Source: Spirochaetaceae bacterium (lineage in GTDB: Bacteria; Spirochaetota; Spirochaetia; Treponematales; Breznakiellaceae). Taken from it: DNA of 32,497 bases. The stretch covers positions 1 to 32,497 of the forward strand of contig JAIRPY010000006.1 of the NCBI GenBank assembly GCA_031256905.1, given 5' to 3'. Position numbers and translations under genes: made by a program. Every line of letters begins with the position of its first letter. Positions within the stretch are counted from its first letter, which is position 1. Positions 30,848-32,497 of the stretch are shown here, piece after piece. The notes under the pieces are model-generated. The model saw only the letters and a program-made list of their open reading frames with translations, was not told where the DNA came from and did no database searches.

Positions 30848-31570
30848 TTACGGGACCTGATCCTTTCCGATGCGGCCTATCGGCGGGCCGAATCTCAAAA
30901 GATATTTTAGAAAGCTCTGGGGAGAGGCCAATTCCGGGAGCCTTACAGGCACCGGTATTGAAAGCCCTTCCGGAGAACGAGACAGGACCAGCCCAAAGGC
31001 CAAAGGCTCGCCGCTGTAGAGGCCTGCGTATTCGGAGGGGCCTTGTTCGTCGGCGTAGGCGATTATGATTTCTTCTTCGGCGCCGCACAAAACCGGCGCC
31101 GCCGCCGCCTGAAATCCTCCGGCAAAGTCCTCCGGACTGGGATAAAGTGCGGTATATCCGGCGGTCAGATGCAATCCTATCGATGCCGCGGCCGGGGGCG
31201 TGTTGAAGACCGAGACCGGAAATACCGAAGGGCTTATCTCGCCTTCGGTAATTATCATCTTATTGATTTTAAATTGTTGCGTCAGCTCTCCCCAAAAAGA
31301 TAGGAATACTATTTTTATTTTTTCTTTCGCGTCTTCCTTCGCGTCTTCCTTCGCGTCTTCTTTGAGAAGAAGAAATAAATTCTGCAATACCTGAATCGTC
31401 ATGCGGGATGTTTGACTCAAACGTCGGCGGAATCGGGGGTCGATGAAATTCAGTTCCGGGCTTTCATCGTTGCGTCTAATTTGCCGTTGGCCCTGGGCCC
31501 ATTCCTGCCAATCCTGGGGGCAGGTCAGGCCCGGCGCCCAAGGGGTAAAACGGGTTGTGAAAAGAGTCAT
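30848..31570 (-). CDS. Beta-ketoacyl synthase-like chain length factor (aryl-polyene type)
   Basis: Predicted 240 residues. The pattern FTTRFTPWAPGL, a central RFRRRLSQTSRMTIQVL, then IVFLSFWGELTQQF, ISPSVFPVSVFNTPPAAASIGL, and IIIAYADEQ follows the ketoacyl-synt_2 family (chain-length factors of aryl polyene clusters). The position of the ketosynthase active-site Cys reads VFNTPPAAAS, so it is likely a non-catalytic partner of a true ketosynthase encoded outside the window. Residues ~70-83 are a KEDA repeat absent from the family pattern. Its ATG overlaps the methyltransferase stop (ATGA), so the two are coupled. Confidence 0.75.
   Translation of the reverse strand: MTLFTTRFTPWAPGLTCPQDWQEWAQGQRQIRRNDESPELNFIDPRFRRRLSQTSRMTIQVLQNLFLLLKEDAKEDAKEDAKEKIKIVFLSFWGELTQQFKINKMIITEGEISPSVFPVSVFNTPPAAASIGLHLTAGYTALYPSPEDFAGGFQAAAAPVLCGAEEEIIIAYADEQGPSEYAGLYSGEPLAFGLVLSRSPEGLSIPVPVRLPELASPQSFLKYLLRFGPPIGRIGKDQVP
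31325..31363. repeat. 12-bp tandem repeat inside the chain-length-factor gene
   Basis: About three to three and a half copies of CGCGTCTTCCTT, encoding (KEDA)n on the minus strand. The period is a multiple of three, so copy-number change would add or remove four residues without shifting frame. Confidence 0.75.
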
Positions 31571-32436
31571 GTTTTCCGAAACCTCAAAAGCGAGTAGCCC
31601 TGGGGTCCGAGGCCGTGATGCGCGGTTTTCAGTTCAAAGCCTCCGGCTTCAACCGCGGAAAGGAGTTCCCCGAAACGGTACATCTTACTGTTTCCGTTAG
31701 CCAAGCAGGTAAAATACAGGGACGTCGCGGTAAGGGAATACGCGGAGGCTTCGAACTTTTGCAGATCCCAAAAAGGTTCAAGCACGAAAACATCGGTTTC
31801 ATGCCCGAGGGCCCCGCGGATTTTGGTTAAAATCCCGGTAATTTCCGTTAAGGAAAAACAGTCGAGAAATTGACTCATCCAGATGGCCTGCGCGCCTTGG
31901 GGAAAGGCCGTTTCGGGATCGAGGATGTTGCCGGGATAGGTTGTAATCCGGTCGCTGAAACCGGCCCGGCCGATGTTTTGTTCCGCTTCGGCGGTTTGTC
32001 CGGGAAGATCGATAAGGGTTACGGTTACTTTTGGGTCGTATTTGCAACATTGGATGGCCCATTCCGCGGTATTTCCGCCTATATCGAAGAGCGTGCGGGG
32101 TTTTTGAGCGAAGACGATCGGCAGAGCTTCGGGGAAGGCGGCCTCTGAATAAAAGTGATCGAAGGCGTACCAGCTTTTCCGGGCCTGTTCGGGCAGGGAA
32201 GCTAGGGCTTCGTAGATGGTGTTCCAGGCTGTTCCGAATACGGATAATCCGGCGGGTTTTCCGGTTTTGACGGATTCCAAGAGCCGAGCCGCGCCCTGGT
32301 AGCAGATGTCGTTTACGAAGTTGAGGTTGATGCGTCCCATATCGTCTTCCAGCAGGAACCAGCCGATTTTTCCCAAGACGAAACTTTCTTTTCCGGGAAG
32401 GGGGGGGGGGGGGGGGGGGTTGTTTAATCGGCCCAC
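31567..32436 (-). CDS. Class I SAM O-methyltransferase of an aryl-polyene-like cluster (5' end uncertain)
   Basis: Predicted 289 residues from GTG 32436; the frame stays open to the window edge. The SAM motif is TLFDIGGNTAEWAIQC, with VTVTLIDLPGQ (acidic motif II) and a C-terminal O-methyltransferase core (AIWMSQFLDCFSLTEITGILTKI). The lead-in VLGKIGWFLLEDD-MGRINLNFV..CYQG and AGLSVFG, YAFDHFYSEAAFPEALP resembles methyltransferases of aryl polyene clusters. The usual N-terminal dimerisation segment is missing or replaced by six prolines encoded by a G20 run. No good Shine-Dalgarno site is seen before GTG 32436. The real start may lie upstream of the window, or the gene may be switched by the run. 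Confidence 0.72.
   Translation of the reverse strand: MGRLNNPPPPPPLPGKESFVLGKIGWFLLEDDMGRINLNFVNDICYQGAARLLESVKTGKPAGLSVFGTAWNTIYEALASLPEQARKSWYAFDHFYSEAAFPEALPIVFAQKPRTLFDIGGNTAEWAIQCCKYDPKVTVTLIDLPGQTAEAEQNIGRAGFSDRITTYPGNILDPETAFPQGAQAIWMSQFLDCFSLTEITGILTKIRGALGHETDVFVLEPFWDLQKFEASAYSLTATSLYFTCLANGNSKMYRFGELLSAVEAGGFELKTAHHGLGPQGYSLLRFRKT
32400..32419. repeat. Homopolymer run of 20 G near the methyltransferase start
   Basis: Twenty consecutive G on the plus strand (C on the coding strand), encoding most of a Pro6 stretch. Long poly-G/C runs are prone to slippage; in frame here at this length, a change of one or two bases would break the link between any upstream start and the methyltransferase. 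An assembly or sequencing artefact cannot be excluded. Confidence 0.85.
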
Positions 32437-32497
32437 AGTGGTTGGACCCGCCGGTGGTGGGCCATTTCCAGGATAACCGGCGCGCCGTAATTTTATA

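Follow-up and report, generated by a model that had tools for sequence, protein, structure and literature searches.

A 20-base poly-G tract in the inter-domain linker of a spirochaete aryl-polyene methyltransferase gene, in a bacterial family where long G tracts recur

Results

Close to one end of the 32,497-nucleotide stretch of DNA analysed here (the window), a homopolymer of 20 G lies in a gene for an ApeB/FlxJ-type methyltransferase, in the part that encodes the linker from the N-terminal to the catalytic domain. Long poly-G tracts of this class recur in the same bacterial family and, at one orthologous locus, differ in length between two genera. We consider the tract itself probably real, and give an even chance to its being a genuine contingency-type poly-G tract in a methyltransferase gene that is presently off or damaged; that it forms a working switch in this particular gene seems possible, if on the whole doubtful. 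The window comprises the whole of contig C57 from a draft MAG (G000; 2.09 Mb in 137 contigs, 73% complete), probably from a termite-gut treponeme or spirochaete, and the nearest named homologue comes from the Spirochaetaceae MAG Cf509_bin31.

The catalytic part of the methyltransferase, which is SAM-dependent, occupies positions 31567-32388 of the minus strand, from the motif FVLGKIGW to the stop codon. It matches Pfam PF00891 and the NCBIfam profile FlxJ_fam_MTase (NF053543; E 1e-110, profile positions 84-351 of 352) with a score of 370 bits, under the curated cut-off of 560 bits, which the full-length homologue L175 also fails to reach (455.6 bits). The nearest solved structure is PDB 3dp7 (residues 86-353 matched), and identity to spirochaete homologues runs from 63 to 78%, the nearest of them being at 78%; the catalytic part contains no stops. 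Directly downstream lies a gene for an ApeC-like beta-ketoacyl synthase N-terminal domain protein (30848-31570, minus strand; PF13723, 6e-23), whose ATG overlaps the methyltransferase stop codon; these two are the only genes of the cluster on C57. In a relative (L187) the methyltransferase gene is followed by that for the PF13723 protein and then by one for an acyltransferase, an order that matches apeB-C-D of E. coli (PMC8253772). Family profiles, structure, neighbour and gene order together support the original prediction in calling this a methyltransferase of a polyene cluster. The role proposed for ApeB is methylation of the aromatic head group, and aryl polyenes are molecules attached in the outer membrane (PMC8253772), which places the gene among those of the cell envelope; by analogy, head-group methylation is the proposed function of the enzyme described here. 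The gene resembles E. coli apeB and the flexirubin gene for FlxJ in its catalytic family and in the neighbour order B-C (PMC8253772), but differs in that its linker is interrupted by a C20 tract and a break in the frame, and in having its N-terminal domain cut by the contig end.

The length of the homopolymer was correctly predicted: on the plus strand, GGGAA is followed by exactly 20 G (32400-32419; C20 on the coding strand) and then by TTGTTTAATC, and no other homopolymer in the 32,497-nucleotide window exceeds 8 bases. Across 240 kb of G000, taken from contigs picked for carrying tracts, whose tally of long runs does not represent the genome average, G/C runs of 5 to 9 bases number 355, 65, 18, 2 and 0, a drop of about five-fold per extra base. 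Beyond this gap at length 9, which is informative despite the choice of contigs, there is a separate second set of G/C runs of 10-66 bases, whereas A/T runs in the same 240 kb reach no further than 10 and lack a second set. The bimodal distribution implies that the G20, far longer than expected by chance, is not a chance run.

When the gene was compared with 79 homologues, none was found to share the run: no G/C run longer than 9 bases occurs in any of the 79, and the sole run of 9 lies in the catalytic part. This rules out a tract conserved across methyltransferase homologues and makes the run private to the G000 MAG. Comparison of upstream sequences, which had been proposed as a check, showed that in the homologues the open frame extends for about 90-130 residues before the conserved VLGKIGW block.

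Between the run and the end of C57 there are 78 bases, and these hold part of the same domain. A 22-codon remnant (NYGAPVILEMAHHRRVQPLWAD; 32424-32492, minus strand) resembles AYGAGTLLEMALALRVVRLRPD of L012 and is read in a frame different from that of the catalytic part; it closes with a TAA at 32424-32426, just before the run, and a second in-frame TAA stands at 32493-32495, at the very end of the contig. At the DNA level the tail agrees with L175 at 23 of 30 bases, a value reached by none of 300 shuffled tails (best 21). In a profile search the remnant frame matched positions 75-93 and ranked 2 among about 900 translated frames, most of them shuffled, a result that is modest when taken alone. 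The distance from the start of the matching block to the VLGK block is about 110 bases, close to the 71-106 bases found in the best-matching homologues. A match to L175 at near-right spacing means that the tail is very probably a genuine part of the same gene, which locates the run in the linker between the N-terminal and catalytic domains. This linker, whose remainder between run and catalytic domain is placed by alignment at 32389-32399 (minus strand), is a length-variable place in the homologue alignment. The first bases of the tail are unlike those of the homologues, and put a stop beside a conserved place.

These data change how the reading frames are to be understood. An open frame (31567-32496, minus strand) does pass through the G20, and the original prediction, which described the gene as in frame now, had relied on a 289-aa open frame beginning at a GTG (32434-32436) upstream of the run. 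Homologues give no support to this GTG as a start, and the frame upstream of the run is another open frame, without family similarity; the upstream frame that does match the family, that of NYGAPVILEMAHHRRVQPLWAD, is not the catalytic one and ends in the TAA at 32424-32426. The N-terminal segment, likewise, is not missing, as had been thought, but truncated by the contig end, with a 22-codon part still present. The run therefore separates the N-terminal and catalytic frames, which are not joined in a single frame in this allele as assembled; and, with a TAA on both sides of the remnant, a change in run length alone could not restore a full-length protein, although the tail may hold errors. The proposal that the run may switch the gene accordingly finds no support in the sequence as assembled, the N-terminal frame stopping before the run is reached. 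A search for the missing N-terminus on the other contigs of G000 gave no match, an empty answer that carries little weight there.

We also catalogued the long G tracts of G000. Runs of at least 12 G number 17, four of which are artefactual poly-G contig ends (three on C53 and one on C86). Eight of the remaining 13 are no more than 250 bases away from a contig end, in stretches that make up about 3% of the genome, from which it follows that tracts break the G000 assembly; others lie kilobases inside contigs. Examples include a G17 in the middle of a continuous 664-aa membrane-protein frame without a Pfam match, and in frame with it (C29; L162 1067-1083), an out-of-frame G14 in a membrane protein (C82), and a G16 upstream of a BspA-type leucine-rich-repeat lipoprotein gene (C16). 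A shorter run, of 10 G, stands in frame five codons past the ATG of a lipoprotein-like gene (C60). On C99, an out-of-frame G20 separates a signal anchor from a GDPD domain (PF03009; L254 207-226), and the corresponding site of a second genus in the family, at 92% protein identity, holds a G18 (L255 551-568), again out of frame. In the sequences compared, this is the one direct sign that a conserved tract differs in length. The C82 membrane protein has a homologue in G015 with a C15 tract of its own near the N-terminus.

Of 11 distinct G000 tracts tallied on contigs other than C57 (the contigs include C6, C16, C29, C33, C67, C75, C82, C99, C118, C130 and C137), 9 have TA as the two bases next after the G; the methyltransferase tract, followed by TT, departs from this pattern. 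On C16 and C75 (L161/L167) about 150 bases around the tract are duplicated, with G16 and G15. We rejected the idea that this is one locus seen twice, as the flanks agree for 73-74 bases only and then differ, which indicates a duplicated stretch.

We then turned to relatives of G000, 99 of which were surveyed. Within the same family, runs of at least 12 G number 271 in G079, 142 in G015 and 74 in G018, while a few members have none; in other families of the order there are mostly 0-5 per genome. Poly-G read artefacts certainly occur in these assemblies, so that counts from MAGs are upper estimates. In the contigs sampled from G079 and G015 the length distribution is again bimodal, with a mode at 14-15 and a scarcity of runs of 8-11 bases; roughly two runs in three are separated from contig ends by more than 150 bases. 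Two family members assembled into single contigs, G066 (4,059,867 bp) and G033 (3,855,671 bp), both bear tracts, in intergenic and coding positions alike. In these two genomes lipoprotein signals, scored by a simple pattern in stretches picked for their tracts, were found in 10 of 26 tract-adjacent genes as against 3 of 48 other genes (p = 0.001); no significant enrichment of this kind was seen in the MAGs G000, G079 and G015.

An apparently uniform size of 456-476 aa for genes beside tracts in G066 and G033 proved to be the length of the fetched stretches rather than a gene family. The idea that tract abundance stems from a loss of mismatch repair was rejected, the MutS1 family being found in 98 of the 99 relatives, including the tract-rich G079 and G015. 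A Fibrobacter MAG (G099) with contig names that suggest the pipeline used for G000 has no tracts, but it was rejected as a clean negative control because some members of its family have many, artefact ends being mixed with tracts flanked on both sides. Long poly-G runs with sequence on both sides were seen in such relatives of G099 at L301, L307, L308, L310, L311 and L316.

Discussion

In the phasomes of Campylobacter and Neisseria, a mononucleotide repeat in coding sequence sets the reading frame, and envelope genes are favoured. The run described here likewise lies within the coding sequence of an envelope-related gene, but it is long, it sits about a quarter of the way into the gene at a domain linker, and its length alone cannot restore the frame in this assembly. 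A second comparison is with Treponema pallidum, where slippage in poly-G alters promoter spacing, the tp0126 tract setting the distance between -35 and -10, and where tprE/G/J need eight or fewer G (PMC7864442). Both cases involve guanosine homopolymers in or near treponeme envelope genes (tprE/G/J, tprL and tp0126), and in T. pallidum their length controls expression (PMC7864442). The tprL tract measured in that study, however, has 7-11 G, and promoters are where the tested tracts exert their effect (PMC7864442), whereas here 12-21 G are usual and the run is inside a coding linker. The mechanism would be of a known kind, that of T. pallidum poly-G, extended by analogy to the methyltransferase of the window. 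An earlier count of treponeme homopolymers (PMC8049484) covered runs of at least 7 in other host-associated species, outside the family of the window, and we found no report in the open-licence literature of tracts of this kind in termite treponemes.

If the tract is a contingency locus, it would gain or lose G during replication, and the reading frame or the promoter spacing would shift as a result. The poly-G class found upstream of and inside envelope-protein genes would most likely act in this way, and the G20, placed in a tolerant linker between the N-terminal and catalytic domains, would be a slippage-prone site. In the off state, the aryl-polyene pigment would probably be made without head-group methylation, judging from the function proposed for ApeB. 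Slippage as the cause of the length differences, switching and any benefit are what we infer from these patterns. The linker position and the membership of a class favour a contingency tract, whereas the two flanking stops favour damage, or errors in a thinly covered tail. As a description of its kind, the predicted term contingency-like run is borne out by tracts in and near envelope genes, throughout the genome and the family, and by G20 versus G18 at an orthologous locus; as a claim of switching in the methyltransferase it is not.

Decay of the gene, and error in the thinly covered tail, are serious rivals to the reading of the run as a contingency tract. In the first, the tract would have grown by mutation without any role, and the methyltransferase would be a pseudogene in this strain, as could be expected from a run that is private to G000, from the stops on both sides of the N-terminal remnant, and from tract numbers that, among genera of the family, run from 0 to 271. 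Such neutral expansion fits poorly with a catalytic part that is intact, free of stops and 78% identical to its nearest homologue, and with tracts that recur in envelope genes, one of them kept between genera; we hold it to be unlikely.

Rather improbable, too, in our estimation, is an assembly or sequencing error, in which few poor reads would have passed through the homopolymer at a dying contig end and the true gene would be continuous, with a shorter run or another tail. The original prediction had raised an assembly problem, and was right in part: the contig ends just 78 bases past the run, and two other contigs of G000, C53 and C86, have ends that are clear poly-G artefacts. The eight of 13 G000 tracts found within 250 bases of a contig end, and a tail whose first bases mismatch the homologues and put a stop beside the conserved place, point the same way. 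Yet a read that collapses into artefactual G never returns to genuine sequence, whereas here the sequence past the run is that of the same gene, correctly spaced, and other tracts lie kilobases within contigs or in relatives assembled as single contigs. A fixed linker of about six prolines in a functional enzyme, starting at the GTG at 32436 or further upstream in a frame that stays open across the run as far as the contig end, is very improbable, since the upstream part of that frame has no family match while another frame has one, and since a GTG start would drop the entire N-terminal domain present in homologues.

Contig ends were also considered as a sign of mixed run lengths, because the sum of tail, run and one base is 99 on C57 and 119 on C67, values that we take to be MEGAHIT k values. 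Among about 40 near-end tracts in related MAGs there was no peak at such values, so that the match was due to chance, and the idea was rejected.

Returning to the contingency tract, the G20 is of moderate interest by itself, and of more interest if it signals an extensive poly-G system among gut treponemes. We put forward only tentatively, as a rather unlikely proposition, that the treponemes of termite guts have a poly-G contingency system of unusual size, which varies surface lipoproteins, envelope enzymes and, in the present gene, head-group methylation of an outer-membrane pigment, perhaps with more than 100 tracts of at least 12 G in some genomes. If real, poly-G phase variation, an envelope-switching device in the syphilis treponemes, would be widespread in gut-symbiont treponemes whose hosts lack adaptive immunity, and these genomes would offer a test case for why such switches evolve. 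There is also a warning for the use of draft genomes, many of whose contigs break at tracts, in that a gene that can be switched may readily be taken for one that is truncated or lost. In G000, the end of contig C82 and the start of C3 (L256 and L258) encode the same 39 residues, so that the two contigs probably overlap and are adjacent.

Several arrangements around tracts were seen in the relatives. Tracts of 12-45 G lie about 70-190 bases upstream of apparent starts of lipoprotein genes, several of them with repeat domains, at L139, L142, L147, L149, L150 and L158 in G066 and at L111, L117, L129 and L134 in G033. Many tracts in G066 (L149, L150, L143 and L147) lie within a dispersed sequence of the form tatatcctagtaaacctatc-Gn-taattcattataatacaaggaattac that has inverted ends (GTAATTCCT / AGGAATTAC), and that is perhaps a small mobile or regulatory element. 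At L109 (G032, ~1490-1520), TTGACA is followed by 7 bases, G13 and TATAAT, so that the tract makes up most of a promoter-like spacer, an arrangement that resembles tp0126 of T. pallidum, where the tract is likewise in the spacer.
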